NCBI GenBank assembly: GCA_010093705.1
Contig: MU006122.1
Coordinates: forward strand, 30,434 to 94,433
Direction: 5' to 3'
From: Patellaria atrata CBS 101060
Lineage: Eukaryota > Ascomycota > Dothideomycetes > Patellariales > Patellariaceae
DNA: 64,000 nt
The notes under the pieces: model-generated
The model's database searches: none
The model's input: the letters and a program-made list of their open reading frames with translations, nothing else
What the model was told of the DNA's origin: nothing
Shown: piece by piece, positions 5,202 to 62,699 of the stretch
Layout: each line of letters starts with the position of its first letter
How positions within the stretch are numbered: position 1 is the first letter of the stretch
Program-made: the position numbers and the translations under genes

Positions 5202-7172
5202 CTATACTACAGTCAGGGTATAATTTGCCTCATTACCAGGCACTCTAGGAAATCCTTCTACCGTAATGGTCACATTTTGCCCGCTATTTACCACACTCTC
5301 TAATAATGAACGTCTAAGGATTAAATGAGCTGAGTCCCAGTTGTAATGGCTATCAAATGTCTAGTTTGATTGCGTCAGTTACAGTCATTGTAGGAAAAAC
5401 AATATGTTGCACTCACCAGTCGTCCCCTCTGCAGTGGTCCCAGCCATTGAGTCCAGTCATCAACGAGTATACCACCGTCACTTTTCATAGCACGTACAGC
5501 TGCTGGTTTGGACAATCCCTTCCAGCTGATGGGAATGTATAGGTCTTCGCTAGCATCAACCATGCTAGTTGTTTCTAAGAGGGTTGGAGTGTCCCATTGC
5601 ACTATTCGCAAACAGATGTCGGCTCCTTGTGAGAAGGACAGAACAATTCCGCCAGCTATCCCAATAGAAGACGTAAAGTTGTTCCAACTAGGCCTAACAA
5701 AGTTCGAGACAAAATTGGATTTGAAGGTAATGGAATCGGACGCCACGAAGTAATCCCAATCTTTCTCCAGCACAATACTTCCAGCTGTGACTTTATCGAG
5801 TGTGTTGCCGTTAAACACAAATGGAAGCTTCTGATCGGTGGGCATTGTGCCCGCATGGTGAAATAAGAATGCAGAGCTGAACTGGCTTTCCGCTGCGGCA
5901 TCTTTAGTACTATCTGGAAGACTGTTCACTTCGCCTTTTTGGGCGCTCATCAAAACATCGATAGCAACAGGATCCCGCCAGATATGTACGGTACGATCAA
6001 GCTGGTCTGCTCCATTGTCCCATAGCATAGTCGAGGTATTATACTTTTTTGCCAAACGAATAAAATGGTCGTAGAATTTCCATCTGGCCGCGGTTTCTGT
6101 GTGAATGGGGGATGCAGACCATTCGCCGATAATCAAAGGAACTTGGGTAAAATTATTGCGCACATTGGCGATGTCACTTTCGAGTGCAGTAATATCGGCC
6201 TCGGAGCCCCAAATGGTCTTACCCCAGGCACCAAAGATGAAGTCATCTAGATGGCAGGTTGATAAGTACGTGTCTTTCATGATCCATGGGTGGTAACCAA
6301 AAGGAGCATAGGGTTCAACTCACATGGAGAATAGTAGTGATACTGCAATGCCCATGGATTTGAAATATTCATGGGTGGTTTGAACCACTGAGAAGTTTTT
6401 ATAGTGTCTTCGCCGAGGCCAACAAGCGTTACCACACGCTGAGCGTTGAAACCGCCAGCATCCTGGATGGCTTTGAGGAATATCTCGTTCATTCTATTCT
6501 GTTGAGCGGCGTGTTCCGACGTGCTACCGGGGGGCTCATTTATTGGTTCGAACGCAACTTTGGAAGACTTGCATGCTAATTTAACACCGATCTGATACCA
6601 CAACCGATAGAACTTTTCTTCGATCATTTGCACATCAGCATCCGGTTTAGAAAAATCATACCAATTCCAGGAATCGTGATGCACATTGGTGATGACATAG
6701 AATCCGTACGAGAGGGCCATGTCAATAACATCCGACACCCTTTGAAGCCAATCGGGGTCAACGGTCCAAGTTGGACCATCGGTGATAAAATGGTATGCCC
6801 AGGTTACTTAATCGCGTCAATTCCTTCACTGATGATAAGGTACAATCAATAGTACTTACCTGGTATCCGCACGCTACTGAAACCAGCAGCTCTCGCATCT
6901 TCGAAGGTTACTGACTCCACCTTGGGATTGTTCCAGTCCCCTTCCGTTTGGATTGCGTCGAGCGTGTTTCCCAAGTTCCACCCTGGATCTGAGGCGGCTA
7001 CATAATCTTCCGCTGAGACATGCTCAAACGTGCCTGGGCACTCCGTGCTATTCACTATCTGACGTTGTAAAACCCCTGTGGTCCCTCGCGCACGTGGGTA
7101 AACTTCGTGTGGTTGAGAAGATGAGAAACCTATAAAAAAAGGCGCAAGGACGAAAAGGGATATGCCTCGCAT
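5202..7172 (-). CDS. Secreted GH5 endo-beta-glucanase with X2/Ig-like and CBM46-like modules
   Basis: Four exons (7172-6860, 6806-6324, 6246-5417, 5360-5202) give about 594 residues. The first ATG in frame begins MRGISLFVLAPFF, a clear signal peptide. The GH5 catalytic barrel spans roughly residues 40-370. Visible active-site motifs are PGWNLGNTLDA, NVHHDSW, the acid/base glutamate in EPINEP (about E195), HYYSP, and the nucleophile glutamate in LIIGEW (about E307). After it come an X2/Ig-like domain (LPFVFNGNTLDKV...DYFVASDSITF) and a C-terminal domain resembling CBM46 (DDWTQWLGP...NVTITVEGFP). This GH5-Ig-CBM46 order is known from bacterial subfamily-4 enzymes such as that of Bacillus halodurans, which degrade cellulose and xyloglucan. 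A role in plant cell-wall breakdown outside the cell is inferred; exact substrate is open. Confidence 0.92.
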
Positions 7173-8933
7173 TCTGATCAAGTACTTAGCGTATGAATTC
7201 CTTTCTGTCCAAGAAAGCTAAACACTCCTTTGTGATGATGTGCTGAAGCATTGAGGGAAGCCCCCGATTATATGCGAATTATCATATGGTTCTAGACGTG
7301 CCGACTTAATTTTGGAATACATTGCACGTTTCGAACTAGGGAGAGATTGCCAGATCATCGTATTCCCGGAGTCCAACTACACGAGTTTGAGAGTCACCTT
7401 CAGCAAAGCAAAAACGGGTGGAGATTGTGGGTGTGATCTCGCTAAGGGAAATTTATATTGATGAATATAAACGATCCCTGTCAAATACGATGTCTAGCTT
7501 GTAGATCAAGACCTAGTGAGGATACATAAGCTTCTAGATTCTATCAAATAAATGCAATGATTGGCCCGGGAGAAGGTTAAGCATTTGATCTTGCGCTGGG
7601 TGCACTCGTAATAGCAGTGGCAAGGAGTCGAAGGTTCACCATTGAACCCAGCCAGTTGGTACCGTACGTAAAAGCTGTGTACAGTACAAGGCATGTGGAA
7701 CGCCAGCATTTATAAAAACGTACTATGACTAAATAGAGATCAAAAACAATAGATTTTCTGAGTAAGAAAGGGAGAGTATACGGACACTTCAAAACGTACT
7801 TTTAGACCCGAGCTAACTGTAGGACTACTGTATGCCCAGAGGAGCTATTCAGCAGGAATCTCCATGCGGACAATACATCATTCTATACCAAAATACTATG
7901 TTTATTCACTCAATGGGATATTATATTTCGTCATAGAACACTTAAGGTATTATCCGTATAGGGATTCCTGCCATAAATCGCTCCTCTAGGCCATACAGTA
8001 GTCCTACAGTTAGTTCGGGTCTAAAAGTACGTTTTGAAGTGTCCGTATACTTTCCCGAAAAGGAAATGGAGAAATGATTGAAACAAAAGGATAAGAGAGG
8101 AAAGGGGAACAAGTCGAAGAATTAGAGAGTCAGAACCTCTGAATACGCTAGATTAAGGATTCACGCGGTATAGTACCACGTATAGCGCGTTCACAATGAT
8201 ACATTCAACTTTACGATATTCCCTGCCATTGTTTGCCTCATAAATGGGAACAGCCTACTATTCAATGTAATTTCTTCGAGACTGTATGAACCCTGAAAAA
8301 CGAGGTCAATGAATCTCGTTGTAGCGGCGTGGCGGGCGTACGGTTAGCTAGGCATTATATAATAAGGGAAGGGTAGATATAAAATTAGGAGCTTAGGATC
8401 AAATAAATCACTCATGCAGGTAAGACAGACGTCGATTGCAGTACTCACTGGCGATACACATAGTAGATATATGGAACTGAGGAAGTACCAGCAGAAAGAA
8501 TACAAAAGGTAGAATGAGACACTAAAGTAATGAGATGGATATATAATAGTATACGTTCTATGTCCTCGTACTCCTATTTTACTGTACGTCTACGCTTCAA
8601 GAGCCCAGGAGCTTTTCGACAAAAGTACAGACCGCCGGAGAAGGCGCACGGGGTTTGGATTCTCTGAAAATCAATATGTGTACAGTGAACGTACAATAGT
8701 AAGAATAGTCCCATAAACAGCAGGAAGGCAAATATGATTGTGGTTCATTTCAGGCTCCGTCAGCTATCGATTCTCCAAAATCCGTGACATAAAGTTAGCA
8801 AAAGTAAGTTAGTATCTGCGAATGCACAAAATATTTGAAGAAAGTATTGATTGCCTTTGTAGCTCTATTTGGTAGTCTAACGGCAAGTGCAATACGGTCA
8901 ATTTCTCACATGTCCTTATAATCTTCTTCACTG
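7173..8933. other. Gene-free interval between GH5 gene and COX13
   Basis: About 1.76 kb without a supportable gene. It holds a MITE-like inverted-repeat element at 7779-8047 (separate entry). ORFs of 60-70 codons at 7506-7792 have no recognisable features and lie partly in or next to the element. Confidence 0.6.
7779..8047. mobile_element. MITE-like element with about 95-bp terminal inverted repeats
   Basis: The left arm from 7779 (TACGGACACTTCAAAACGTA...) matches, with few mismatches, the reverse complement of the right arm ending at 8047 (...ACGTTTTGAAGTGTCCGTA). Similarity extends about 95 bp inward on each side through GACTACTGTATG and AGGAATC. The spacer is about 80 bp and has no coding capacity. 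TA dinucleotides at 7777-7778 and 8048-8049 flank the element, as expected for a Tc1/mariner-pogo type target duplication. The size (269 bp), long arms and lack of a transposase make it a non-autonomous miniature element. Confidence 0.85.
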
Positions 8934-9577
8934 TCACTCCTTCTTATGGTAATTGACCTTGTCGTTCCAGAAAAGGGTCTGCATAAGCTCATGTTATTAT
9001 GATCCATTTCAATTAGGGGCGCAAACATTGAAATTGGAGCTTGTGACTCGGACTTCCGAATGATTGGCCATATAAGAAAGAGAACCCAAGCTTACCTTGT
9101 CCCCATCTCCCCAGAAGTAGTTCTTAGACCTTATGTTTTGGTACGAATATTCGGTTTTCTCCTCTAACGGCGGTCCGTGTGCGAAATGTTCCCAATGCTC
9201 ATTCCACAGAACCCACGCATTAGCGCCCGCGATTATGATGGCAGGAATGACAGCGCTCCAGAGATCGTTAGCCTTATCGCAGGTGAAACGAACAAGGCTT
9301 CTCGCTCAAACAAAATGTCGGGGACCGACTTACTAGATGGAAAGTTTACGCCAGGTGTCTGTTAATTCGTAATGTTAGCAATGGAAGCTACCGTCAAGCA
9401 CCTCAGCTTACCGCTTGTCTGCTCTGCATGGTGTTTCACGGCTGCTCTCTCTCGATTGAAGGCATTATCTTGCACACCCGTAAGCTCGCTGGCGTAAGTG
9501 CGACGGATCACAGTACGTAGGGGGGGAATGCGGATGGCTCGCAAAGGAGGCCGCCCGAAAAGATTTCGAGAAATCAT
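8934..9577 (-). CDS. COX13: Cytochrome c oxidase subunit VIa (Cox13)
   Basis: Four exons (9577-9412, 9358-9334, 9255-9096, 8978-8934) give 131 residues. The second exon is only 25 bp. The N-terminus is a basic mitochondrial presequence (MISRNLFGRPPLRAIRIPP). A single membrane segment follows (AVIPAIIIAGANAWVLW), then the family signature NEHWEHFAHGPPLEE, YSYQNIRSKNYFWGDGDK and TLFWNDKVNYHKKE at the C-terminus. The subunit sits at the dimer interface of complex IV in the inner mitochondrial membrane and modulates activity. It is head-to-head with APN2; COX13-APN2 adjacency is a conserved flank of the mating-type locus in many Pezizomycotina. Confidence 0.95.
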
Positions 9578-9883
9578 GATTGAAACTGATTGTAGGGGTC
9601 TAAGATTTAATGAAGATTTCAGTATGTTGATGTTCTTCGTCAATTGTTGATGCGTCCTTCGGATGTCAAGAAATGGGGTGAGGTCAGTGAACTGACCGGC
9701 CAAGAATGGACTTGGCAAAATTGGTGCAGTACAATAAGAACCTGCTGACTAAGAACTTAAGAACCAACCACCGAGCCGCCTAAACTAAAAAACCTAATCA
9801 CCCACTCAGGTGGGACAAATACCCTCAAATGGTCAAATTCCGACGGATAGTTGAGTCCTCGTTTTCTATACAAGCCCATCAAA
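9578..9883. promoter_or_regulatory. Shared COX13/APN2 promoter region
   Basis: 306 bp separate the two divergent start codons, so both genes must be driven from this interval. No specific binding site could be assigned by eye. Confidence 0.5.
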
Positions 9884-11925
9884 ATGCCTCTTCGCATTAC
9901 GACGTGGAACGTAAATGGCATCCGTAATCCTTTCGGCTATCAACCATGGAGCTCGAACCGAACCTTTGGTGCTATGTTCGATATCCTGGACGCTGACATT
10001 ATCGTTATGCAAGAGCTGAAGATTCAACGGAAAGATTTACAAGATGATATGGTTATTGTTCCGGGATGGGATTGCTTCTTTAGCCTTCCGAAGCACAAGA
10101 AGGGTAAGGGAACATTATTGCAATATAATGCTTGAGTACCGAGCTAACGCAGTAGTTTAGGGTATTCAGGTGTGGCTATATATACCAAGGAGTCTGTTTG
10201 CGCTCCCATCCGTGCAGAGGAAGGCATCCTCGGCGTCCTGTGCCCCCCTGGTTCAAGCACAGCATACAGAGACTCTCCTTCCGAGGCCACAATAGGCGGG
10301 TATCCCTCGCTAGAACAGACCGAAAACTTTAAAACAGATTCCTTGAGTCTCGACTCTGAGGGACGTTGCGTGGTTCTTGAATTCCCCGCGTTTGTATTGT
10401 TTGGCGTTTACTCTCCGGCTAACAGCAATGGACTTCGTGATGACTTTCGGTATGCTTTTCTCAGCGCGCTTGACATCCGAGTCCGTAATCTGGAACGCAG
10501 TGGGAAGAGAGTCATCATAGCAGGAGACTTGAATGTATTAAGAGCGGAAATTGACTCAGCTCATGCAGAAGAGACTTTGCGCAAGGGAGTATTAAATCAT
10601 GAGGAGTTCATCTCAACCCCTAATAGAAGAATCTTCAACCAATTGCTTGAGGACGGTGAGGTTATCGGTGAGAGGGATAAGGATAGAGAAGAACCAGTTC
10701 TATGGGATATTTGTCGAGGATTCCATCCGACACGGAAGGGGATGTACACACAGTGGGAGCAAAAAATCAATGCCAGGCCAGGCAATTTCGGTAGCAGGAT
10801 AGACTTCATTCTTTGCAGCCGCGATATGAAAAGCTGGTTTTTATCAGCGGATATCCAGGAGGGACTTATGGTATGCTTGTCAAGGAATTTCTATGGCATT
10901 CTTATTGATTATATTAGGGCTCAGACCACTGTCCCGTTTACGCAGATTTGCATGATAAGATCATGCTTGGCGATAATGTTATAGACTGTCAAGACATCAT
11001 GAATCCTGTTGGTACTTTCTTATATGGGACGCGGGTAATATCTCCCAGCACAAGAGAACCTCTCCTTTTATCGGGAAAGCGGCTACCTGAGTTTGACACA
11101 ACAAAACGTAGGAGCATAAAGGACATGTTCCAGAAGAACTCCAAGTTCTCCCCACTATCTAGTGATGAAAATACGACTACAGGGATAGAAATGTCAGACT
11201 CGAACTGGAACGCGTCTTTGAAGAATGTAGCGAAGCACTACAAGCGGAAAAGATCTGTAAAGCTAATGGTCGAGGGGAATTCAAAGTCTCGATTATCCTA
11301 TACTGCTTCTCGCCCAGGAGACCAGAAATCACTTGAAGACTTTTTTTCGAGACGAGTTAATAAGACCGCTCGTAAACCGCTCGTGCAGCCAGTCCTCACA
11401 AATAAATTTACTACTCTTTGTGACTCCGTTATTGCCTCAGAGCTCTGTTCTAAGGATTTTCATTACACTAATCCCGACGAATACGGCATTCCCTCTACTA
11501 CCAAACCTGAGATGAGTAACCCGTTTAATCTGAGCATAGATCACGCAATCAGTAATACACGTTCAACTGCACATGGCTCGACCGAAAAACCGAGCTCGTC
11601 CTTTTTAGAGCAGGATGTTAGCCTCGCCGGTCATGCTCAATCGAGTTTTTCATGGAGCAACCTTCTCCGCAAACCTGCACCCCCTCGATGTCAAGGTCAT
11701 CATGAACCATGTATCATGCTCGCAACCAAGAAAAGCGGAGTGAATTGTGGCAGGCGCTTTTGGATATGTGCCAGGTATGGATCCATCCCTTTTTTTTTTT
11801 GAATTGAACATATGCGCATTGCTGACTCCATCTATGTTTATAGACCTGTTGGACCCTCCGGCATCAGAGAGTCTGGTTCAGAATGGCGCTGCTCAGCATT
11901 CCTGTGGGCAAGCGATTGGAAGTAG
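9884..11925 (+). CDS. APN2: AP endonuclease 2 (class II, exonuclease III family)
   Basis: Four exons (9884-10103, 10161-10870, 10918-11774, 11844-11925) give 622 residues. The ExoIII-type nuclease fold covers about residues 1-340: MPLRITTWNVNGIR at the start, the metal-binding glutamate in MQELKIQ, IAGDLNV, and the catalytic GSDHCPVYADL recovered only after splicing. The middle is low-complexity with a PCNA-interaction-like stretch (QKSLEDFFSRR). The C-terminus is a GRF zinc finger (CQGHHEPC...NCGRRFWIC...). The enzyme cleaves abasic sites and trims 3' ends in base-excision repair. It lies immediately beside the interval where mating-type genes usually sit, and its 3' end is 142 bp from the end of the convergent Zn2Cys6 gene. 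Confidence 0.96.
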
Positions 11926-12067
11926 GAGATCATCCTTTTAATGGACATCAAATTCATAAAACCTATATCAAGTCGCCATATCCTCACAAGAACAACACAT
12001 CTTATTGATGATTGATGTGAAAAGCAGTAAAGTACAAATTTGGCCATAGTAGACTTGATAAAGAATG

Positions 12068-14036
12068 CTAACCCATGATCGTTTGCCAGTGGTTATCAAA
12101 CATAACATTGATCCAAAATACATCCTCTTCGCCGTTGTCGAGACGGCGCCAGACCTCTTTGATTAATACTAGCATCTGGCGGAGGGGTTCCGCCGGTAGT
12201 TTTCGACAAAACTCTCTTAGCCGTCCTTCCACAAATCGCCGTGCATACGAGACCTTAGAATCGTTTGCATGGAAATCATAATAGTCCAATGAGGCCACAT
12301 ATCTCAATTCAGAAGATGCAGTTACTAGAAGAATTGGTTGAAGGCAGCATGTCCCGGAGGATAGGGGCAAGCTTTCGAGGGTTTTCAGTATATATATCGC
12401 GAAGGAGTTGACCCAAATTTGCATATCGAGGGGACTATCATTACAGTCAGGGGCAAACTGTGGTAGTCCATACGTGCAACGCCTTTCATCAATTTCACTC
12501 CCCGAACCAAGGCGTTGCCTGAGAATTTGTGGGAAAATACGATAGATCTCCAAAAGCCCCGCGCACCGGTAAGCTTCCCCAATAGTAATAAAGTGTTTCT
12601 TCGCTGTGTTCTCATCCCCTGGGTCAATCAGATCATCTAGCGTAGGTAATTCAAGTTCCAGAAGCTGTTGTTCCAGCGCGGTAGCCCAAACGAGTTCCAC
12701 GTCATCATTCAGTGATATATAATCGCATGCACGATTCCTATTCAATCGCTGCTGACGCACAAGGCGTCCAACTTCAGCGAACAGCATCTGAGTTCTTGGA
12801 CACACGCCTGTCCAGGGGTGTGGAAGGATTTTATCCTTCGGTTCGTTGGAGTCCTTGCATCTACTCAGGTTACCAACACCCAACCAGGGATCCCAAACAT
12901 ATGTGCAAGATTCCTGAGAAACGAACCCCAACAACATTTCCCAATAAATTAGACTCTCTTTAAAGAATTGGTTATGTCGTTGGGTTGTTTTTTTCGTCTG
13001 AGGGCCTATTCGAGTAAGTTTAGGGTAAATGAGATTTCTCGCCGCATGAAGATGTGCTAGTCCAAGATCTCTGCAATCGTGCCAGGCCGCAGAAAGCCCC
13101 AGCAGCAATATAGCCAATAGTATTCTGTCATTAGGTTGTTTTTCCGTTTCAACTCGTCGTAGTTCCTCATACAAACATGAATATGCACTTTGTTGGAGCT
13201 TGAGCCCGCGAAGTTTCATATGAGGGAATATGTTGGCCAGTTGTGCGGCGGCCATGCTCTGTATAGCATAGTAGATCGAGGGCGTTTCCTGCCATATCTG
13301 ACCAACAGATACTCGAAAAGGGTTTAGAGTTCCGTCATAGGAGGAGAAAACAATGCATACTTCTTTGAAATAATGTTCCACCAGATTTGTTCCAGGTCCA
13401 TGTAAAGGTCGGCGGGGATCAAAACGTATTCCAGAAGCCGGGATATGCCAATCAGATGCGTCCGTACGAGCTCTCATATCAGCCTTAAGCTGATCCACAT
13501 ATCCCTTGCTACCGTTTGAGTTGCTACTGTCATTGTCGGCATGAATCTCCTTTGGGGGAATATAGCGATTGTTATGTGCCGGGAGACACCGCGTTCCAGT
13601 GTTAGGACCTATATTCGAGTTTGCTGCAAAATTTCCGGTCATGCTTCCCTCAGCTATCCTGAATGCTTCAGCCACTGATGGGTGAGGAAAGCTTGATCCC
13701 GCAACCTCCCTCTCATCTCTAATACCCCTGAATGGAGATCTCTGTGACTCGGGGTAGGATGTTAACAGTTCATATTTTGTTGACCATTTCAGCGACTTCT
13801 TGTATCCTGGGCAAGTTATGTCGCGGGTTAAACAATTTGTACAGGAGGGCTTAGTTTCATCGCATTTGAGCTATTCACTCATCAGTGTTCATAAATACCT
13901 TCAAAACGATATCAGGCGCTCTCACCCGCTTATCCTTACAATGCAGACAGCCGTTGCGGGACTTTGCCAGTCTCCGGGCATTATGTGATGTGTAGCTAGT
14001 GTCTTTGTCCGCTACCGCAGAATACACACGTACCAT
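12068..14036 (-). CDS. Zn2Cys6 transcription factor with fungal-specific regulatory domain
   Basis: Two exons (14036-13926 and 13870-12068) give 637 residues. The intron splits the zinc cluster after KDKR. Joined, cysteines at about residues 30, 33, 40, 47, 50 and 57 fit C-x2-C-x6-C-x6-C-x2-C-x6-C exactly, followed by a basic stretch (GYKKSLKWSTKYE). The remaining 550 residues look like the alpha-helical Fungal_trans_2 type regulatory domain (LVEHYFKEVC, LLLGLSAAWHDCRDLGLAHLHAARNL, ...YEMLL-type helices). It would be a nuclear DNA-binding regulator; target genes are unknown. It occupies the APN2-SLA2 interval in place of a mating-type gene. The start at 14036 is the only ATG in frame before the zinc cluster. 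Function beyond the family is not inferred. Confidence 0.9.
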
Positions 14037-15445
14037 TTTGGCCGATTAGAGTGTGACCTGATGAGAAGACAATTGCCTTATATATCGCAGTCTCCAAGTC
14101 TGGAGACGATACCTCAGATACTCGAACTACAGATCAGGCGTCGACGCGGGTTTGATATTTTTCCTAAATAAAGTGATCTTGCCGTGATCAATATTAAATA
14201 GTCGCACCGGATCAGCATTTATTATTTTGCGGGAATTGGTCGATAAAAGTTTCACGAGATACTCCAGTATCATGCTGTAGTTCAACCAGACTAGATCTAG
14301 AACTAAAACGGGGTAGTTCTATAGAACTGAGATCCGGTTAGAAATCTCTGCTACGTTGTCGAACCCCTCGTTACTTCAGGACCAACTGGATGATCCTCAT
14401 TACATAAAGGAAATCAAACAATGATACTATTCGTGCGACTTTACCTATGATCTTACAAAAACTGCCTATACCTCCTCGCGACGTTGAATTTGTTCCGAAT
14501 TCGGCGAGAGCGTACAGCAAATACATAGCAGGTACTGTACAGTACAACATAGTTCTTTGCTCTTCATGTCATTTTATAGATTGTGCTCCTTTCGTGGTAC
14601 TCCCGATCTTAGAGAAAACGATGGAGTTGTGATCAACTCCTTACAGACCGTAAATCGATAATGTACACTTCTTGCTACTCATACAGCACACGTTACTCGT
14701 CCAACTCCCTCGGAAGCGACCAGGCACTCTGTTACCATCAGTATGCCTCAACCTGTATACTAGGCTAAAAATTGGTGTCAGAGCTGTCAGGTCCGATGTG
14801 TAATAGATATGCATAGTCAATTTAACTAAATTAGTTGTCCGGTTCAGGTAATTCCTAAGGCCTCGGCTCTCTGCTGCAATAAAGATTAGGACGATTAGAA
14901 AATGAGGGTAAGGGATGGATATCTTGTTGGAACACTAGACGGTAAAGCTCTTTGTTTATCTCTCAACAACCAAAAGGGTCAACCTTAGCAGCGTACGACT
15001 CATGGTTACTATAGTCCTCTGGGCCCTCTGGGGAGTCCGTTACTACTAAACATAAGGTACATCGTGAGACATATTATGAAGTATTTGACAACCCGAAAAA
15101 GCGTCACATATTGAGTAATATGCGGGTATGCAAACGTCAAGACCAGCTGTAGTGTGGTGTAGAGTCGACACATACCGCTATTCCTCTAATTCAGAAATGA
15201 CGTTCTCTATTAACCTATGCTTAGCTTGGTTCACGACGTTAAGAACACCCATAGTTCGATATGCAAGAAATATAACGGTCATAGCCACGTTCTTGACCAT
15301 AAGTTCCATTATTTACATGTTCGCGATAAGAATCAACAGTAAGCGGCTCCTATAAACGTAAAATGTGGTGTTGGAGTATATTTAAGGAAAGAGATTTCGT
15401 GAAAGACAAGTGTAGACTTTCACCTGCACGTCTGCAAGTAGCGCC
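14037..15445. other. Gene-free part of the APN2-SLA2 interval (expected MAT position)
   Basis: 1.4 kb between the regulator's start and the SLA2 stop. I looked on both strands for an HMG box (PRPxNAxxxYR-like) or an alpha box and found neither; the longest ORFs are 60-75 codons without domains. Several copies of the GTACTGTACAGTAC-type palindrome occur (for example 14531-14545). It must contain the promoter of the Zn2Cys6 gene. Confidence 0.6.
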
Positions 15446-18400
15446 TTATTCTTCTTGATAGGAGATTTTGCGCATCTCACCGAGCCTTTGTCGTGCTTGA
15501 GCAAGACTATTCTCCAACTGTAAAATCTCGACCTAAAGGAAAATTGTTTTAGTAGGAATACAAGTTGCGCAGGAACGAGTGCGGAATAGCGTAGCGGGAG
15601 ATATACCTGTTGCTCCATCTGTCTAACCTTAAACTCATGGTCACTGAGTTTACTGTAGTCCACAACCTCGTTCTCGTCTCTATTTCTCTGTGCAATGATA
15701 TCTTGCACCTGGCGTACGAGTGCGCGACAAGCGAATGTAACAGCTTTGCTGGCGCCCTCCAGTCGATCTTGGGTCTTGCTCATGAAAGAAGCTTTAACAC
15801 GACTGGCGGCAACTAACTGCGCGGTGCTGGCAGCAACGTCATTGCTGGCTACTATCAACTGCTCTGGAGAATTGCGGCCGCTTATCACACCATCGGCCGT
15901 TTCAATCAAGGTGTTGGTGGAACTAGCAACAGCTTTGGCTGCACTGATCAATCCCTCCGTCCAGCGATTATGTTTTTTGTAGAATGCGGTCTTGGACGAT
16001 GTGCCACGCCCCTCACGGACGATTTCTTGCTGTGATGCTGTAGCGGCTTTGATCAGTTGCGCAATTGCGTTTGTGACGGCAATAGCAGCTTCCAATATAG
16101 AACTAAGACATGCAATTAGATAACGGCGGCTTAGGTGATGGATGGCTGACTTACTCATGTATTCGAAGTTCGTACGTCGAGTATGAATCCCTTGGCTTGT
16201 TCATCAACTTCGTCAGTTTCTCCGTTGCTGCTTCAATAGCCTTTGCAGCGTTGGTCATTTCCCGGTCAACGAGATCGCCCAAGTCCCCCTGGGCTGAGGT
16301 GATCTTGCTCTTAGGCGCGAACGCATCCGCAAGCTTGGAAAGCTTCTGAAGATTGACTTGCACCTCATTGTTGTTATTGATTACGACATCCGTTTTCTGT
16401 ATATCCTCTAAGCCGTCCAATCGAAATGATTGCAGAGCACGGAAGAAGTTCACAGTAGACTGTGCCGAATGTCTCGCTGCATTTATCAGTTGATCGGCTT
16501 TCTTCTCATCAGAGGCAAAGCGCGTAAGGCCTTTAGTATTGCTAAGAACGTCTGCAACAGAACCAGAAAAGGTATTGACGGTCCTGATGATTTCCGCGTG
16601 AGTGCTATTCGGGCCATCGGCGATGAAGTTATTGAAAGCAGTAGAGAATTCCATAGCAGTAGTCGATGCTTTTTCTATCTGGGATAATACATACGGTCCC
16701 GAAGCATTCTGATTACCAGCTTGCATCGAAGAGTCGAGTTCGTATAATGCATCGTCTACGCGCTGCACACCACTTTGCAGCACTGAATCAACAATATCGT
16801 TTATTTTACGAAGATTATCTGTAACCATAGTATCAATATGGCCATCCAATGCATTATCAGTCTCCTGATGAGTTTGTTTCAGTTCATTAAGTTCAATCAG
16901 CGTTTGGTCCATGCCGGCTTTGAATATTTCTAGTTCTTCTTCCTTCTCACGTAATTGGCGTTCGAGGTCAGAATCACCTTCTCGGTATTTCATCGATATG
17001 TCATCCAATGCCCGTGTTTTACTTCGTAAAGATTCTTCTAGATCGGCAATTTCTCTGTTATGCCTTGATAACATGGCAGATAGCTCAGAGCCTTTGGCCC
17101 GTTCCGCGTTCTCTGCTTTGTCGAGTGCAAAACGTAATTCTCGCTTCAGCTTCTCTAATTCCTCACGGTGGCCACCTGTCGTCCGGTCTCTATCGTGTAA
17201 CGCTCTATCCCGTTCTCTGATCATATCGGCGAGCTCTAGATTCTTCGTCTTGAGTTCCCGCTCAAGTTTCTCTCGTCGGTCGATCGCTTCTTGTGCTGAT
17301 GCGGCTTTCAACTGGATTGACTTGAACTTCTGTAGTAGTTCGAGATGCTCGTGCCTTAACTGCGAATATAACTTAGCGAGCGCCTCATACTTTGTCCTCC
17401 AAGTGTTCAGTTGCTCCTGTAGAGCTCTAATTTGATCATCTTTTGACTGTGACTGCTGCGCAAAATTACTATTCAACTGCTGTAGCTCCGTTTCCAAAGC
17501 TTTCATTCGTTGATCGTATTGCTGCAACATTAATTGATCAGTCTGATATTGCGCCTTAGCAGCAAGATTTTCGCGCTCCAGCTCAGCTAATCGTCCTTGA
17601 GTCTGCTGTTGGTATTGTTCACGCAGTAACTGCTCTTGTGCTAGTCGTTGCTGTTCCGCTTGCAATCTTTGTTGCTCTTCGAACTCACTCTGTGCTTTGA
17701 GAGCAGCTTGTTGTTGCTGTAACTGTGCAGCCGCCCATTGTTCCTGTAGTCTTCTCTGTTCTTCCGCGTATTCATCTTGTTGCCTTTTCTGCTCATTTTT
17801 CCAGAACTCATTGATTGGTTCCGGGTCGACTGACGCAGTCCGCGGAGGCGTCGGTACGGTGACCGATTGTTCAAGTTCTTTCGCAGGTCGAGCTGGCAAT
17901 GCCGGTCGGTCTTCATCATCGGAGAGAAGGTTCGGAGGTTCTTGCGGTAGTTTGGGCACAGTAATTAGACTCGTAAGGTATCTCAGGTTTGAACATTCAT
18001 AATAGAACTTGACTAATCTGTAATGTTGAGCATCGTACCGTCCTCGAAGCGGTGATAGAGCTTCGTCATCACCAAGCGCTATGTTCTGTTAGCGATGATT
18101 TGGGTAGCAAGAAGGCGGTAATTACTTGTATGCATAGCTCTCAGCATGCTCGTGATAAACTTGTAGATACCATAACTTTCTTGAACTAGCGGTACCAGTG
18201 CCGAAATCCTGCATTCATTGTTCGCACCAGATCTAAAGTGAGAGAATATCAACTTTTGGAAGTTTTCAATCTGATCCTGAAGCGTCATTAAATCTGATAT
18301 TGTTTCATACCTAAAACGGTGTCAGTATTCTATGACTCGTCTTGACGAACCGAGATACACACCCTTCGTTAGGATCGTTGATCGACTTGAGACTGATGTA

Positions 18401-19168
18401 TTCTTCATACTCGAAAGTGCCTTTTCTGGTATAAGCAGATGAGAAGCACGATCTCCCGGGATGTCTTACCGTTGAATTCAGGATGCTGTTTGTGGAACGA
18501 GAGCTTGGCTAGCAAGAAGAAGATGTACTCTTGTATAAGAGGTCCATAGCCTATAATTTCGAGTCAGGGGGTCCTATTCGCACCAATATGATAGGAAGTT
18601 ATGCGCACCGCGAAGCCCATCACCTCCTGCAACACCACGAGTTAGGCTTTCCAACCAGCTGGTATTTGCCTGCGCTTCCCTCAATGCGATCGGGTGACCC
18701 TCTTGTAGGACTTTATGTACGGTGATTAAGGCCTTAAATGTTTGAACCTCGTCGGCGAGGATTGGTTGGCTACGTGTACCTATGTTAGCGCTGGAGGTTG
18801 ATCACAGCAAATCACTGATACTGACACTTTCATGCCCGCCCAGAACGACTGAGAGGATTTATGATCCCATGTATATACAATAGCAGCCCTAACATGTTTC
18901 CCTATCCCAAATAAGCTTTGTCCGCTGAGTTCAGTGAGAGAGAAGGAAGGTGATGGTACGTTTAGGTGCTGTTTCTTCTACAATGAATTTAGTGACGTGT
19001 TGAACTAAGGGAAATGGAAGGTCAAGTACCTATACTGGTGGCCTTCTTAATATTTATAGCAAGTTCCGATTCCTGCCTGAGTGTGTTCAGTATGTCATAA
19101 TCCAGCCGTAGTACTTAAGATGCGTACTTTCCCATATCCACGTTACGCGTGGAACCATACATAGCCAT
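15446..19168 (-). CDS. SLA2: Endocytic adaptor Sla2/End4 (HIP1R family: ANTH, coiled coil, I/LWEQ)
   Basis: Eleven exons join in frame: 19168-19128, 19076-19030, 18977-18960, 18901-18826, 18769-18609, 18550-18470, 18420-18363, 18310-18126, 18078-16155, 16102-15607 and 15532-15446, giving 1057 residues. The N-terminus is an ANTH domain (LAINIKKATS, HVRAAIVYTWDHKSSQSFW, ALITVHKVLQEGHPI). A Gln/Glu-rich coiled coil covers about 280-600 (ERENLAAKAQYQ region). The C-terminus is a talin-like I/LWEQ actin-binding module. The third exon is just 18 bp and encodes EETAPK. Sla2 links the clathrin coat and PIP2-containing membrane to actin during endocytosis and polar growth. SLA2 is the classic second flank of the ascomycete MAT locus. 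The exon 1 start (MAMYGSTRNVDMG) is less certain than the rest. Confidence 0.95.
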
Positions 19169-21082
19169 GACGAATGCGGAAAGACGAGTTACCGCGCTGA
19201 GATGGTAAGCTCTCTAAGGAAAAAATACAAATCCTGGTAATAAACCCAGAGATACGAGAAAATGTAAAAGTGTGCAAGCTCCTGAAACTTGATGATTCTT
19301 CTGCCTTTGAGCTTGTGAAAGTGTGACGCTTACGGTACATGTTGTCTTGGCATTGAGCTATATGGTGCACATTACTACCAAAGGTATATTGTTTCTTCTC
19401 CTCTATTCTGGCCTATAATCTTTATAGTTCTACTACTTATTGCTATCTACTATACAGTAAGGCTATAAAAGTATTACTCTCCGCTGGTACTTAACCTTCC
19501 TAATACTCAAGACATAGGTACGACTATTATAACAGCCTAAAATACATATCTCACGGTCAAATCCAGTAGAGAGTAGAAAGAAAACAATACTGGGCTCTCC
19601 TTTAATATATATACTTGATAATTTTGCTCTTATTCTTTTCTCCCCTTTCTTTCTCCCCTTTCTTCTTTGCAGCTCGAGAAGCATCTAGATACCGCTGTGA
19701 AGACGCTCTCCCCCGAAGGCATGTAGACTCTGTTAAGAATAAACAGCGTATGATCTGCAAGCTTTAATTCTAAATCTTCCATTTGTCTTCCACATATCGG
19801 TTTGGAGAGAGGGTGAAATCAATTACTCCCTAGGGGTATATATTATTTAAGATTGGCCACTGAAGCAAAAGACCGACCTCAATGCCGAGTAGTACGACTT
19901 ATATCTAACAATCGGGAACTTGAAATAGAAACTTGTGGACACAATGCTTACCTTAGCTTGCGATAGGCGGTCCATTGTTCCTGGCATATATCTTCAGCTG
20001 TAATGTATGAATGAACCAGGTATGCCTTTAGCTAAAATGCATGTAGAAAAGGTATATACCTCCAGGTATTCTATATATCGTGGTGGAATACGGGAAGCTA
20101 TATGTATTATTCGTAGAATACGTGCTAGCAGTAACATTATAAAACCACACCTCAGTTATAGCGCTATAAACCCTAGAAAACACGTATTGGATGGTAACCA
20201 TGCAGCTGCCATTCCAAAGACCCCCTCCCCCTCCTCGCTAAGGTATACATCCAGCCATGGTTATTGTAACGTTGGATATACCTTACCGTGTTACGTATGT
20301 ATACACTAAAGAGCCCTGGATAATGCCTTGTAAACAAACCCTGTGGACCCCATTTGTTCTTCGTGGGGTTGGCACGCTAGAAGCACCGACCGATGCGACC
20401 ACACGAACCGCTGTGGAGGTACCTTAGCCAAAGCTATCCACAAGCTCAGTATCGAGCTATGAAAAGAAGAAAACAAGAAGAGGAGAGAAGGAGAAGAGGA
20501 ATATAAACCCCTGAAGAGTAGGTAGTCCTATTCCGGGCCGACTTCGGCTATTTCCCAGCCAATATAGGCCAGAAGCATGAGGAAAAATGCCGTAGTTCTC
20601 CCAGACTTATGCGTAGTAACCAAAATTGCCGGTGCTGACATGTCCTGGTGTGTCTCTTAGTCTTGCTTACTATCCCAGCCAACTCAGGCGTACTCTGTAA
20701 TCATAATATGCAAGATGGCAAGCTTGATGGGAGTGTGCATTAACCCCGTTGACAGCAAAACTTTCTAGGACTTATCTCCCGTCTTCATGCCTAAAGGATT
20801 CTTTCCTCCTTACCAGCACTTCCAACACAGTTCACTTTGCGTTCATCTCGAGCTAAGGGTTCGTCTTTCAACCCCCAACTAAGGTTTGCATAGCTTTGAG
20901 AGAGGAGATTCTACAAGACGTAAAAGGAAAGAGAAGGGGAAAACTAGAAAGCATGAAATAACTGAGGCTACCGGAAGCAGACTTACACTTTCTACCTGCC
21001 AAACCATGTGGATCTCAATATCCAAAGTCCCATACTTGCACTGCTAATATCAGAAAGCGCCTTGAAACCGACCAGTCACCGT
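19169..21082. other. Gene-poor interval upstream of SLA2
   Basis: 1.9 kb without a supportable gene. It contains pyrimidine-rich and AT-rich stretches (around 19640-19670) and an ORF of 100 codons at 20007-20309 with no domain. Part could be decayed mobile DNA, but no terminal repeats or coding remnants could be proven. Confidence 0.5.
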
Positions 21083-21403: not shown

Positions 21404-22254
21404 GCCTCATTAGCAATATCTTCTATCAAGGTTGACCAGATCCGAGTGACAAGCTTCTTGAACATGCATACAGTATGTCACGGATGACTTGCCAAGGGAA
21501 AGCTGATTGCCTTGTTCTCGTACATGTACATAACAGGGCGTACGTCGCCATCCTGTATGTCTCTTCCCACAAGATCACTTCACCATCCTAGCAAACTCTT
21601 CCTGCCATCGCGATGTCTGAGCTCGAAACTTGGCACACAGGCCACATCCAACCTTCTATACATTCCTAATCATTTTTCTAACTTTCAAACCTGGGTTTTG
21701 ATATTGACGGTGTAGTCCACGGAGACTATTGTAGCATCCAATTCCTCTCCCAGCCCATCATCGGAGTATTCCTGGCTACTGTATAGTTTCCCTGTAAGTA
21801 TTTTCGAAGGACTGTCACTTCTTTGGTCATGACGCCAGTTTAGTCGGGGCGAAGGAGAAATGATGAAGAAGGTAAGAGCTTAACTTTGTAAAATAAGGAA
21901 TAGGGGTGTTTGTGTTGCTGGTGGAATAGTTAGATATACCTGGGATTCTGCATGACAGTGTGGATGATTGATGTAATGAAGATTTCCACATCTTCATTGA
22001 ATCGGTTCTTCAGTGAATACAAAGTAGTTGATGAAATTTGTACCATATGCTTCCATTTCCCTATCCACATGGGACCAACAAAAGAACTCGAAAATAACAA
22101 TCGCCTAAACGCGCAGATAGTTTTCGTTTCACAAACAATCGGGGGTATATACAACCGCCTCATCCTCATCATCCCCGTCCTCATCATCCCCATCCTCCTC
22201 TTTATCATACCCTAATTACAAAACTCACCATTTTTTTTTAATCATCATCCCTTA

Positions 22255-23218
22255 TCATATCAACTCATCTCCTCCAGCCCTCCTACTCTCTTCGACCGCC
22301 CTCCACACCTCACCCTCGTCGAACACGGGACCTTGCCCATTACACCTCGCCACCCGTTTTAGCCGCTCCGTCACATCCCCGATATCCACAAGGCCCTGCT
22401 TGACCAGCGGATGGGCCTGAATCAGATCCCACGTCGCGCCGGCGGGTAGCATACTCCCGGCAACGTCCCATCCATTCCCATTCCGCATGCTCGAACTACC
22501 CGACCTTGTCAATCCCGCGGTCGTTGCCGTGTAAGCCTCGGGCGGCGTGGTGGGGGATGGGGGGAGAGATAAAGTGGAGGAAGTCGCGCGTAAGATCTCG
22601 TTCTCGGTGGTTGCGCGTTGGAGGGCGAGTTTGAGGCGCTCGTTGTCGGATTGGAGAGAGGAGGCGCTAGATTCGAGAGCGGAGAGCTTGGCCTCGAGGT
22701 CTTTTACGTGGCGTTCTTTGCGTTCGCGAAATGCTCGTTGTCTATTTCACCCTTATCCTCAGCATTGAAGTTAAATTATACGAGATTCACAGGAGGAGAA
22801 GAGGGAGGGAGGGGCTTACGCGGCTCTATTCTGGGCCTTTCGTCGGCTCTGGGCGGGTGTGAGGGTTTCCTTCTCTTCGCTGCTTGCTCGTTGCTCTCTG
22901 TCCGCTTCTACGGGAGTGGGGTTTATGGAAGCGGTGGGGAGAGGGGTGTGAGAGCTCGAGGGCGGGGAGGCGGGTATTAGGGGCGCGGTTGTGGTGGGTG
23001 TGAAGTGGAATTGGTCGTAGGCGGTGGGGATGAATGATGTGTCAATGTGATCCTATCATGGGAATAAGGTTTAGTATGATCTATCTGATCGAAGTACAGT
23101 ACAACGATGTAATATGAGATGGGAAACTTACCTTTGGTTCTTCAGCATAGGAAGGTCCTTGTGGGAGACCCACGAACTGGAATGGTTGAGGAGAGGCGTA
23201 ATAAGAGGTGAAGTCCAT
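22255..23218 (-). CDS. Yap/AP-1-like bZIP transcription factor
   Basis: Three exons (23218-23132, 23052-22820, 22741-22255) give 268 residues. Exon 1 begins MDFTSYYASPQPFQFVGLPQ. The basic region and leucine zipper span roughly residues 95-150: RRKAQNRAAQRAFRERKERH, then heptad leucines in the following 30 residues. The second intron splits the basic region after NRAA. The NxxAQxxFR pattern of the Yap/Pap1 family is present. A short conserved-looking C-terminal block follows (MLPAGATWDLIQAHPLVKQG, then DVTERLK). The AP-1 type cysteine-rich domain (nCRD/cCRD) is not evident; a single Cys is seen (VARCNGQGP), so a direct redox sensor role is not supported. It is likely a stress- or metabolism-related nuclear regulator related to fungal Fcr3/Yap proteins. 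Confidence 0.9.
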
Positions 23219-25567
23219 GACCGACAGATATACGGGACTGCTATCAGGTTCGAGAGGTTGTAATACAGAATGGGTGAGGTGTAACAGTATGAAGCTGGAG
23301 GAAGGTCTCTCTCGTGGGATGCGGCGGTAGGGGTAACAAATATATAGATGTAGAGTACCTTACCCGATCAGCTCGACCCTCTACCCTACCTGTACTACTA
23401 ATACTGTACATAGGTATCTTATTTAGTTATCTATTCTGATTTAGTGGCTTACTGCATCTCGCGCATACTAAGGTAGCCCCCAGACAAAGTCGCTAGTACT
23501 GAGCGAGGAGTAAGGTATGCAGCTAAGCATACATGTATCAACTATCAATCAACTGTACCTTCAAGTTCACCTAAGGTATCAACGTGCTGGTCTGGAATCA
23601 GGATGAGGTGTCCCGTCGGGTAGGGCAAGATGTGAGGTATCAACCCATGCATCGGTACACCCGATATACTGCCCCGTATTAGAAAATTATACCTTGATGA
23701 TAACTTTGGTTTTGTATGATGGACGTTGTATTTAATAAGAACCAACGGCTTCCATGTCGAGCTGGTAAGGTTGGTAAAAAGCGCCCAGTTACCGTTAGCA
23801 TCCAATGAAAGTTCGAAATCTGCCATATCTCAGCCGGTCTCAGCAAACGGCCCGGAATCTCGGATGATGATCGAAGGTCAGCCTTGAGCTTAGACTTTTA
23901 CAATCACGACAATTTGGAGAAATTGTGAAATACTCAGAGGAGATTTATTACCATTTTATTGGGGGCTGATTCTCTCCGAAACTTGATCATTGGTCCGACT
24001 TTCTAATTAATCTCCCCGAATATATACCGTCAACTTTCTTGAATCGTAACTACTTTTGTACAAGCGTGCTTGGTACTTTGTTCTAAAATACAAGAGGAAA
24101 GGCGTCATCACGATGTCGGGTACAGTACAATACATCTATACGGTACCTTACAACCCACTCGGGTATAGTGGGTATAGTAAGTTCAGTAAATGGAATGGAT
24201 GTCACCTTACGTTACATTACCTTACTATCCGATTAGAGCTCTCTTACATTTGCTTTCGGTACATTAAGGTAGTTCTACTGTATTTTTAAGGTATCAACCT
24301 CCCGAAGATCATTCTAGGGCTACACTACCTTAGAAACTTTGATTTACTGGTCTTGAGTACTTTACCTCAGTACTATCACTACTCATAATATCTACCTTGC
24401 CGAGGTTGAGGTGCCCTGTCTCTTACCCTAAATCGTTGGCTTTACCGTTAGAACTAGGCCTCGTGTCCCTTTTCTCCCGAGGACTCCATCTCTCGGGTAG
24501 GGTGTAGCTTGACAACGGCCTGAGGGGCCAAGGGGCCTTAACAGGTTGGAGAATTTGGAATAGAACCACTTCCAAGTTGTTGGTGGCTTTCCACCATCCG
24601 AATCCTGAAAAGTACAGTACTTATGTTAATAACTTGTTGAAGGATAAGTTACCATTTTTGGATGCTTTTCCCCAACATGCTTCTCACCCGTTACTGACTC
24701 AATAATAATCAATCACATCTCGCCATTCCTACTATACGAATAGTGCTGGATACTGAACGGACGTCCAAGTGACCGCATATCATTTTATTAGTTCTGAAGT
24801 GTCGAGGTTAAAAGCTTTCGTCAGCACTAACCTTCAGCCTCAAATGCTCCACCATCAATGCATCAACCATAAACTTCACCAGATCTCACACCCTCCTCGG
24901 GAAGTGGCACGGCCAGGGAACCAACAATTATTTTAACCGCCATCTCTGGATTCCTTTCACCTATCATCCCCCTTGGACTACACACAATACTTACTTGAGT
25001 CATCTCTGTAGGTATAATAACGAATATTTTCCCCGGTCCTAAAATTTACTCCTATTCTCTAGGTAGGAAAAGGGGTTCGATCGAGTCTGATTGCTAGCCC
25101 TCCTGATATTCATCATCCAATACATCGAGCGCCCATGTAGTGGGAAAGGACCTTCGATATCATTATTATGATACGTTACCACATTGTGTCAATATTCCTT
25201 ACAGAGTCAACAAATGACAAATGACTATAGACCTGGCCGAGTATTATTGTACACAAAACTCTATTCAAGGGGTAATACTCCATTTGAATTACCCCCATCC
25301 TATTCAAAAAATTGTACAGATAGATACTTCCTCCTAAGGCTTTGTTGAATGTTTCCTTGGATGGTCAGGTCGTGCTCATCGTCCTTCGTAAAAGCAACTC
25401 AAAGCTGCCTACATCAAAAATTTTGAACTCCGAACAATTCCCAGCTTCCGAAATAGATGTATGCCCAAACGCCAGTATCTCTAAAGCGAGCATCCAGCCA
25501 AAGTTTTGAAATTCAGGGATATTCCTTCCCGTAATTATTGCATTTCTATTCCCTGTTACTATCGCTC
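23219..25567. other. Gene-poor interval between bZIP and LIP5
   Basis: 2.3 kb. The only noteworthy ORF is 23826-23545 on the minus strand (93 codons, begins MADFELSLDANGNWALFTNL); it starts with ATG and has balanced composition, but no family is recognised and I leave it as doubtful. The rest carries many short GTAC- and AAGGTA-rich motifs (24118-24320) and no other coding signal. Confidence 0.45.
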
Positions 25568-27005
25568 TCAAGTTGTAACTTCTTTGACCGAATTCGATTC
25601 GGAAGATAGAGCAGTCGTGCTTTGCAGCTGTATCCCTTCCCCTCTCTGCCCCGTCACCGCGCGTTTCTTCAAAACGTTTTCAATAAATGCTTCTCCTGCT
25701 TTATAGCTCGAACGAACGAGTGGTCCGCTAGCACAGTATAGAAAGCCCATATCTAGAGCGCGCTGTTGCCACATCTCGAACGTCGCAGGTTTGACATATT
25801 CGTACACTTTCATATGGCGCTTGGTGGGCCGCATGTATTGACCAAAGGTAATGACATCAACGTTTATCGTGCGGAGATCTGCATCGACGACGACCGTTAG
25901 TGGATGTCTAATTCGAGCTTTCAATCACTTAGCTATACCTTTCAGTGCTTCCCAGATCTGGTCTTCAGCCTCCCCCAAGCCTAGCATCATGCTCGTCTTG
26001 GTGATAAGACTCGGTTTGGCAGCTTTTGCTGCTTCGAGAACCGCAATACTCTGCTTGAAGGTAGCTCTACGATCCCGCACTTCGGGTGTCAAAGCCTCGA
26101 CGGTCTCGACGTTGTGAGCGTACACGTCTAAGCCGCTATTTGCCACCAACGCGACCGACTCCAGGTCGCCCGCATAGTCTCCTGTAAGGGCCTCTACTAG
26201 CATTGTTGGTGCCTTCCTTTTGATAAGTCTGATCGTTTCCGCGAAATGACTCGCCCCCCCATCGACGATATCGTCCCTGTCAACCGAAGTGAGGACGACA
26301 TAACCAAGGCCCCAGCGCGAAAGGGCTTCCGCAGTATTCTCGGGTTCGTTTGGATCGAGTGGAGGAGGTTTGCGTGATGTTTTGACGCTGCAAAACCGAC
26401 ACCCACGGGTGCATGTATCTCCCATGAGCATGATAGTCGCCGTAGCTGCTGACTTCGACGAGCCGCCCCAACAATCTGATATATTCGGGCAGCGAGCTTC
26501 TTCGCATACTGTGTGGCGAAACTTCGAGTTAGCAGTCTGCTACAGTAAATCTGCTTGCTTCCAATGCGATAGATCTATCGAGCTCACAGTGGATGGACTT
26601 ACCAGTATGCAAATTCAGGCCTCTTAGGTCGCTCTTGATCTTCTTGAAATTCTCTCCAACTGGTATAGGCGTTTTGAGCCATTCCGGCAACCTCGCTATC
26701 TGCTTCTGTCGCCCTAGCGGTCCTACCATAGCGGTTCGCAATTGAAATGCTTCGTCCATGCCTAACGCCACCTTCTTCTCACCCACAAAATCAGAGAAGG
26801 ACGGACCAGCATCAAGTGATTGTGAAAATGCGCTTGACCGTTGTTTCTGCGGCTTGTTGTCTTCAACATTCTGCTGTCCCGAAATTGTGGCAAGGGTTCT
26901 ACGCTGCTTGGAGGGTTGCAGGCGCAGGGTTCGAAGGGGGAGCCTAATAGGACTGGATCGACAGAGTAAACAGCGTGTCTCCAAATATAAAGAGGTCATT
27001 GTCAT
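25568..27005 (-). CDS. LIP5: Lipoyl synthase, mitochondrial (radical SAM)
   Basis: Three exons (27005-26603, 26508-25939, 25878-25568) give 427 residues. A basic presequence ([19 protein letters not shown]) points to mitochondrial import. Both iron-sulfur cluster motifs are visible: the auxiliary cluster [12 protein letters not shown] and the radical-SAM CTRGCRFC. The LipA C-terminal serine ligand motif is seen as VRSSYKAGE. Other family blocks are [30 protein letters not shown] and [13 protein letters not shown]. The enzyme inserts two sulfur atoms into octanoyl groups on lipoyl domains of pyruvate and 2-oxoglutarate dehydrogenases and the glycine cleavage H protein. An alternative ATG lies two codons downstream of the chosen start. 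Confidence 0.97.
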
Positions 27006-27470
27006 TATTCTTGAAAAATATGTGCCTCAATATAATAAGAACAACGGCGTTGAGTTGAGAACTGAACGACTTATACGAGTTACGAGAGGTCCAAGGTCCA
27101 AGGGTCCTCCTTCCGTATGCCGCATAATGCCGGCCGCTAGCATCGGATGCTAAGGGTGACCGGAATTCTCCGTATTAGTATCTGTGTTCACTGATTGGAC
27201 CATACCTTACGGAGTACTGTTCTACAAGGCAAATGCTCTGTCCTGTACATGAAGGTAAGGTAATTTTCACGCCATTTATGGATGTATTCAAGGTTGGTAC
27301 AACACCTTGGCTGTGTTGATGAATGTGTGATATACGTGCAAATTCCCAGTAAAAGTCTCTGGAACATGAATTCAACATTGCTCGCTTGAACGCTACAGGA
27401 TATGATCACACTAGAATTGCGAATAGACATTTCGTCCAGAGACATTTGACGAAAATTTGAAGTTGATTTA
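27006..27470. other. Intergenic between LIP5 and MED12
   Basis: 465 bp containing the LIP5 promoter and the MED12 3' end. No gene or repeat recognised. Confidence 0.5.
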
Positions 27471-60965: not shown

Positions 60966-61261
60966 GAAGAATGGAAGGGGATAAAGGCTTACTAGATTAT
61001 ATCGCTTTCTTATATATACTAAAGTTAAAGTTAACTTTATTTAAGAATAAATAGCCCTTTTTTTTTTCTTTTTTTTTCTTTTAATTCTATTAATTATATT
61101 ATCTATAATATTATATATATATAACTTTTAAAGTATAATATAATTTTTTATTATAATAAGTATTTTCTAATATAAATATTATAATTATAAATTATAAAAA
61201 GTATATAATTATTAAATAAAGAGATAAAAAAATTATATAATATAATTATAAAAAATATAAT

Positions 61262-61297
61262 AATATATTATAATATTAATTCTATATTTTCTATATT
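61262..61297 (+). repeat. 36-bp partial copy of the repeat start
   Basis: The segment matches the first 36 bp of the copy beginning at 61305 (both start AATATATTATAATATTAATT). It lies 43 bp ahead of it and appears to be a short local duplication. Confidence 0.7.
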
Positions 61298-61304
61298 ATA
61301 TAAT

Positions 61305-61995
61305 AATATATTATAATATTAATTCTATATTTTCTATATTAAATATTTAATTTATTTATAAAAGATCTTTATTAAATTAAATATAAAAAAGATCTTTAAA
61401 TATTAATTAATTAAATAGAAAATAATTAAATTAAAGTTTAATAAAATAAAATTATTATATATAAATATTTAATTTATAATATTATTATTTTTTAATTTAA
61501 TCTCTATATTTAATAATTAGTAATAAAGATAATTAAAATATAATTATTATAATTATATTATATTATTATATTAAATTAAATTCTTCTTTAATAGTCTTTA
61601 AAAAAATAATATAATATTTTAATTAAAGTATAATATTAGTTTAATCGATAAATAATTATCGAATTAATTAGAAATTTATAAATAATTAAGCTTTATTAAT
61701 AATAAAATATCTAATATTTAAAAGTATTAATATTAATAATAATAATAATCTAATATTTAAAAGAGATTAAAATTAATAAATATAAATTATTTAAAAAAGT
61801 AAATATTATAATAAATTAAATAATATAATTAAATATTTAATAATTTTAATAAAATAAATAGATAATAAATTAACTATAAATTTAAAAGTAAAAAATAATA
61901 TTAAATTAAAAGAAAAAGAAAAAATATATTAATATAAATTAATATTAGAAATAATTAACTAATAAATTATCGATAATATTTTAGAAATATATAAT
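61305..61995 (+). repeat. RIP-mutated LTR-like repeat, copy A
   Basis: Copy A aligns with copy B (from 61996) over about 650 bp with only scattered differences, mostly C/T and G/A. Its first 260 bp also align with the unmutated copy at 63735-64000, with G and C of that copy replaced by A and T at nearly every position. Confidence 0.88.
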
Positions 61996-62645: not shown

Positions 62646-62699
62646 AATAACTATTATCTATTAATCTTTCTACTTTCCTATATTTAGCGGGTTTACTTA

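Follow-up and report, generated by a model that had tools for sequence, protein, structure and literature searches.

Gene order at the APN2-SLA2 interval

We analysed a window of 64,000 nucleotides from Patellaria atrata CBS 101060 that contains no N. It corresponds to positions 30434-94433 of contig C34 in an assembly of 28.3 Mb and 46 contigs (a genome size of 28.7 Mb is given for the species in PMC6110257), and coordinates without a contig name refer to the window. COX13 (approximately 8936-9577, minus strand) has four exons in the model used, and its spliced protein matched PF02046 (COX6A) with 171.8 bits; the unspliced single exon scored 23.5, which is under the cut-off. APN2, encoding AP endonuclease 2 (9884-11925, plus strand), has a spliced model of 622 amino acids with introns at 10104-10160, 10871-10917 and 11775-11843. 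Its unspliced middle exon matches PF03372, and the protein is 100% identical to a P. atrata CBS 101060 record. Then come a Zn2Cys6/Fungal_trans_2 gene (12068-14036, minus strand; intron 13871-13925) with an intact frame of 637 amino acids, and non-coding DNA (14037-15444) from the start of this gene to the 3' end of SLA2. SLA2 (15445-18977, ends approximate, minus strand) carries ANTH and I/LWEQ domains. Spliced models and domain matches bear out the order COX13, APN2, Zn2Cys6 gene and SLA2 given in a preliminary description of this DNA, as well as its statement that the APN2-SLA2 interval holds only an intact Zn2Cys6 gene and non-coding DNA.

The common arrangement of Pezizomycotina, with MAT1-1-1 or MAT1-2-1 between APN2 and SLA2, was not found here. 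No alpha box or HMG box was detected in 11926-15445: whole-genome searches with PF04769 and PF00505 gave zero matches on C34, and the genome's own MAT proteins had no tblastn match to the interval at E<10. The 1.4 kb between the Zn2Cys6 gene and SLA2 contained no long open frame in a six-frame reading, and searches of 14037-15444 with the MAT locus of P. atrata as query (tblastn and blastn) found no MAT sequence. The earlier statement that the whole window lacks a MAT box held for the interval but not elsewhere, as a probable degenerate piece of MAT1-1-1 lies upstream of SLA2 (20349-20401, minus strand). This piece matches positions 22480-22539 of contig C7 and is weak on its own (tblastn E 0.016, blastn E 0.003). 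Its local score was 41, whereas 500 random windows reached 26 at most, and it shares 21 identical bp with a better relic on C3.

Other features were noted in the window. Open frames with a CBM_X2 carbohydrate-binding domain at 5375-7217 (minus strand) probably belong to a cellulase gene, judged from the look of the sequence, and those at 22258-23359 (minus strand) include a basic leucine-zipper-like stretch and perhaps encode a Yap1-type regulator (by eye). An inverted repeat at 7770-8056, with 68-nt arms that are 96% complementary and spaced by 151 nt, looks like a small inverted-repeat mobile element.

Mating-type genes on contig C7

PF04769 had two matches in the whole genome, at C7:22440-22820 (93.1 bits) and C3:341799-341981 (63.7 bits), and PF00505 had ten, of which two were halves of a single HMG box (C7:18359-18613). 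MAT1-1-1 (C7:22160-23189, plus strand; intron 22386-22440) has an intact frame of 324 amino acids and is 100% identical to a P. atrata record across 78% of its length. MAT1-2-1 (C7:~18772-17954, minus strand; intron 18519-18472) also has an intact frame, of 257 amino acids when counted from the start codon at 18772, with several in-frame starts further upstream. The spliced domains scored 111.3 bits for MAT1-1-1 (cut-off 28.1) and 77.7 bits for MAT1-2-1 (cut-off 25.4). We named MAT1-2-1 from its HMG box, from the assignment of this box to the sequence-specific HMG class, with SRY/SOX-type proteins as nearest solved structures, and from its place beside MAT1-1-1. An NCBIfam search gave no match for the MAT1-1-1 protein or the Zn2Cys6 protein.

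The two genes are 3.4 kb apart and divergently transcribed, and intact MAT1-1-1 and MAT1-2-1 are present together in one haploid genome, as in the homothallic type. Judged from sequence, both genes are probably functional, and their layout predicts self-fertility (homothallism). To account for the missing MAT gene, the preliminary description had considered relocation, loss in an asexual lineage or a new idiomorph, and had proposed tblastn and profile searches across the whole assembly; these located the intact pair on C7, none in the interval, and agree with relocation. Loss in an asexual lineage does not fit because the MAT genes on C7 are intact. The idea that MAT function was lost draws on several broken MAT pieces in the genome, but one intact copy of each gene persists, and we regard it as highly improbable.

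RPL21 (C7:17260-17595) flanks the pair on one side, and the neighbour on the opposite side (C7:24904-27096) is a gene encoding PH_11 and MMM1 domains. We take DUF2404 to be Pfam's MMM1 model, so that the latter would be the PH and DUF2404 gene that stands beside MAT in a Botryosphaeriaceae-like neighbourhood. APN2-COX13 was not found at the opposite side of MAT, as such a neighbourhood would have it, and a COX13 pseudogene alone remains. It consists of two stretches in C7:20934-21751, between the MAT genes, which are 68-75% identical to live COX13 and its upstream DNA. An in-frame TAG interrupts its frame, and it retains intron DNA, indicating that it arose via copying of DNA and not of RNA. 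No second APN2 lies beside it, and genome-wide the only match beyond the APN2 of the window was a single weak one on C1 (E 0.008). The pseudogene suggests that MAT and COX13 were formerly adjacent; located near MAT1-1-1, it would be a physical scar of the broken link and helps to trace how mating-type loci move.

C34 and C7 both carry one degenerate repeat family near their starts, and the MAT locus is ~18-23 kb and APN2 ~40-42 kb from these contig starts. The separate contigs may thus overstate the chromosomal distance between the loci, and MAT may not be truly relocated: the two contigs would adjoin across unassembled repeat-rich ends, and repeat growth or an inversion would have pushed MAT from APN2-COX13 on the same chromosome. 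However, a related repeat stretch is also found on C8, so the shared family is no proof of adjacency, and we consider this arrangement rather unlikely. It would also leave the emptiness of the interval and the verdict on the Zn2Cys6 gene unchanged.

The Zn2Cys6 gene and its relatives

After removal of a 55-bp intron, the Zn2Cys6 protein shows a complete zinc cluster and a Fungal_trans_2 domain, and it is 100% identical to M501DRAFT_1020927 of P. atrata CBS 101060. The gene had been proposed as new mating-type content, an idiomorph replacing or joining the MAT genes, and it does occupy the exact interval that normally holds them and does encode a transcription factor. However, it is not limited to the MAT locus or to a single lineage, as 735 of 7997 candidates scored matched it at E<=0.001. 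Among the 120 of these 735 matches that were listed, the close named relatives were Dothideomycetes with 38-55% identity, mostly over ~70% of the length. The other matches in the P. atrata genome at E<=1e-4 were only paralogues, with 36-55% (C5) and 26-55% (C6) identity.

We also compared the contigs of the Zn2Cys6 gene and APN2 in the 34 species or assemblies present in both homologue listings, the Zn2Cys6 listing again holding 120 of the 735 matches. P. atrata itself was left out, as were species listed from different strains (Parastagonospora nodorum, Pyrenophora teres, Paraphaeosphaeria minitans and Macrophomina). Among the matches listed, the two genes share a contig in 14 of the 34 assemblies (Byssothecium, Saccharata, Phyllosticta citriasiana, Zopfia, Massarina, Paraphoma, Ophiobolus, Boeremia exigua, Dothidotthia, Ampelomyces, Ascochyta rabiei, A. 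lentis, Neocucurbitaria cava and N. sp. VM-36), while ~0.9 such pairs were expected from the contig share of a ~40 Mb genome. The genes were on separate contigs in the other 20, many of which have short contigs (Trematosphaeria, Delitschia, Lepidopterella, Lophiotrema, Lindgomyces, Bimuria, Polyplosphaeria, Lojkania, Amniculicola, Didymella heteroderae, Setomelanomma, Massariosphaeria, Pleosporales sp. CAS-2024a, a second Boeremia assembly, D. pomorum, which may be two strains, Pleomassaria, Macroventuria, Phaeosphaeriaceae sp. PMI808, Decorospora and Coniothyrium). By gene tags the distance between the two genes is 69 in A. lentis; for N. sp. VM-36 it is ~46, assuming tag increments of ten.

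In relatives, therefore, APN2 tends to have the Zn2Cys6 gene in its chromosomal neighbourhood, and most simply, reshuffling brought the gene into the APN2-SLA2 gap. We rejected it as MAT content given its Dothideomycetes-wide relatives (~40-55% identical among those listed), its linkage to APN2 at a distance in relatives and the presence of both classical MAT genes on C7; a mating-type role seems extremely unlikely. It is most likely an ordinary regulator, and nothing found links it to mating.

The APN2-SLA2 interval is thus very probably an emptied mating-type seat, with the MAT pair residing on C7 together with the PH/MMM1-domain gene and the COX13 pseudogene, and with an ordinary Zn2Cys6 regulator in its former place. 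MAT and COX13 would once have adjoined, and their link may have been severed by DNA duplication and rearrangement; the Zn2Cys6 gene, coming from the same chromosomal neighbourhood, would have entered the gap via local reshuffling. APN2 and SLA2 are common landmarks for finding MAT; in P. atrata, a search guided by them would arrive at a transcription factor and give the impression that MAT is absent.

Scattered pieces of MAT and COX13

With C7:17000-22799 as query, 50 matches were obtained in the whole genome, self included. Many of them stem from a repeat family at C7 ~20.5-20.9 kb, which was excluded from the count of pieces; a repeat family in the window (61240-62900) and at C7:20633-20763, between the MAT genes, has many more genomic matches. 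The remaining matches, together with finer local searches, gave degenerate pieces resembling MAT1-1-1, MAT1-2-1 or COX13 at 11 places on nine contigs (C2, C3, C8 with two places, C9, C11, C13 with two places, C16, C20 and C34). In C7 coordinates, MAT1-2-1 and its upstream DNA are represented by 18033-18343 on C16, 18345-18393 on C20, 18422-18471 on C3, 18515-19069 (gapped) on C8 at 280 kb and 19049-19145 on C11, and MAT1-1-1 by 22068-22359 (one gap) and 23156-23185 on C8 at 908 kb, 22480-22539 on C34, 22518-22871 on C3 and 22881-23166 on C16. The C13 pieces and a second C11 piece correspond to DNA between MAT1-2-1 and the pseudogene (19626-19998, 20117-20164 and 20189-20253). The COX13 pieces, in window coordinates, are 8854-8974 on C3, 9102-9207 on C16, 9187-9251 on C2 and 9399-9641 on C9. 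In the C16 relic (C16:612845-613129) a MAT1-1-1 piece and a MAT1-2-1 piece form one open frame of 136 amino acids. Beside the pieces, C13:551515-551611 and C16:610135-610309 match each other at ~80% in inverted orientation and are possibly further parts of a lost locus.

Pooled identity to C7 was 1540/1744 (88.3%) for 16 MAT pieces, pooled without the C11 and C13 pieces and without four further rows that were weaker or lay upstream, and identity of the four COX13 pieces to live COX13 was 456/528 (86.4%). Three of the COX13 pieces are closer to live COX13 (83-89%) than to the C7 pseudogene (71-81%), so the lost copy was not merely a copy of the present C7 locus. RIP was rejected as the cause of the broken copies: relative to C7, the pieces carry 41 G>A, 31 C>T, 40 T>C and 18 A>G changes, with no one-way excess. 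As a gauge of whether the lost copy had ever functioned, changes at codon positions 1, 2 and 3 numbered 46, 30 and 43 in MAT1-1-1 and 20, 15 and 37 in MAT1-2-1, counted against C7 reference genes that are presumably under selection themselves.

The total overlap between pieces of different places is 75 bp, as compared to a mean of ~715 for random placement within the three genes, and an overlap of at most 75 bp was reached in 2 of 200,000 random placements. The count was 4/100,000 when pieces of one place were merged, and again 4/100,000 when the window piece was dropped. A weaker null, with one long C7 axis and without COX13, gave 643/100,000. Repeats of one stretch occur within single places (C3, C8 and C16), and the overlaps between different places are 11-22 bp, which would match what filled-in staggered breaks leave. 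On C3 as well as on C16, the pieces run COX13, MAT1-2-1, MAT1-1-1 along a single strand, an order from which the second C8 place departs. We infer that the pieces derive from one further MAT-COX13 copy that was fragmented and dispersed, and the APN2-SLA2 interval is possibly its former seat.

The pieces may instead be several independent partial copies pasted elsewhere and not the remains of a single broken locus. Most of them are only 30-375 bp, copying is possible since the C7 locus itself is intact, and on the single long axis the low overlap is merely moderately rare (643/100,000). The near-exclusive tiling inside the genes (2/200,000 and 4/100,000) and the same gene order and strand in C3 and C16 speak against such copying, and we give it a real but less than even chance.

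Control searches at E<=0.001 returned self matches only for 9600-19000 (APN2-Zn2Cys6-SLA2) and for 23000-32500 (an unrelated 9.5 kb), and C7:22800-32399 returned itself and two MAT1-1-1 3' pieces, with no pieces beyond MAT1-1-1. As these neighbouring or unrelated gene blocks were untouched, the break-up of a single further copy could have been aimed at or confined to the mating-type locus; the controls are three single-copy blocks, a small set that does not gauge how often duplicated DNA breaks up here. When 219 kb were compared, 29 pairs were linked to MAT or COX13 and 46 were others, in a biased set much of which was drawn from around the pieces. The 46 comprised contig-end repeats, local repeats, the set-aside repeat family, a repeat in the C16 relic and two short C13-C16 flank matches. 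No short direct repeats flanking the pieces at their present sites were seen by eye at C2 and C20. The full scenario, in which staggered breaks dismantled a second MAT1-1-1/MAT1-2-1/COX13 locus, no stretch survived more than once and the remains were dispersed over 11 places on nine contigs, in a break-up aimed at or confined to this locus, is doubtful and we put it forward tentatively. If confirmed in relatives, the mosaic would represent a second mating-type locus dismantled and dispersed while a working copy survives, and would record a change of mating system.

Comparison with known mating-type loci

A literature search found no paper combining 'Patellaria atrata' with 'mating-type', and the top two papers combining the species with genome and MAT1 cite it, in the portions consulted, for genome size or tree position alone. 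The sole match for mating-type locus, Zn2Cys6, APN2 and SLA2 was a paper on Morchella, where, in the portion consulted, Zn2Cys6 genes are only counted across the genome. Homothallic layouts and truncated MAT genes are well known in the literature surveyed; when fragmentary, relic or dispersed MAT genes were searched for, none of the titles or opening lines of abstracts described a mosaic like the present one. In Phyllosticta (PMC6859488), a PH-domain gene is likewise among the genes of the MAT locus and both MAT genes occur per genome in P. capitalensis and P. citrichinaensis, but the consulted sections make no mention of scattered MAT pieces.

According to PMC8905617, MAT in most Botryosphaeriaceae lies between the gene for a PH and DUF2404 protein and APN2-CoxVIa-APC5-CIA30, and detached MAT genes have already been reported in Neofusicoccum. 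P. atrata resembles this 'third type' in having MAT off the APN2-CoxVIa block and both MAT types per genome, with a PH-domain gene belonging to the family's MAT neighbourhood. In Neofusicoccum, however, MAT1-1 and MAT1-2 are not together (PMC8905617), whereas in P. atrata 3.4 kb with the COX13 pseudogene separates the pair, and a Zn2Cys6 gene occupies the old interval. The APN2-MAT-SLA2 trio is also described as broken in the Dothideomycetes Aureobasidium and Cladosporium fulvum, and in Aureobasidium, too, a single locus carries both MAT genes, oppositely oriented (PMC4227064, PMC9453070). By these accounts APN2 stays by MAT in the two fungi and SLA2 is 70-500 kb or 1.43 Mb off, whereas in P. 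atrata APN2 and SLA2 remain together and MAT is gone.
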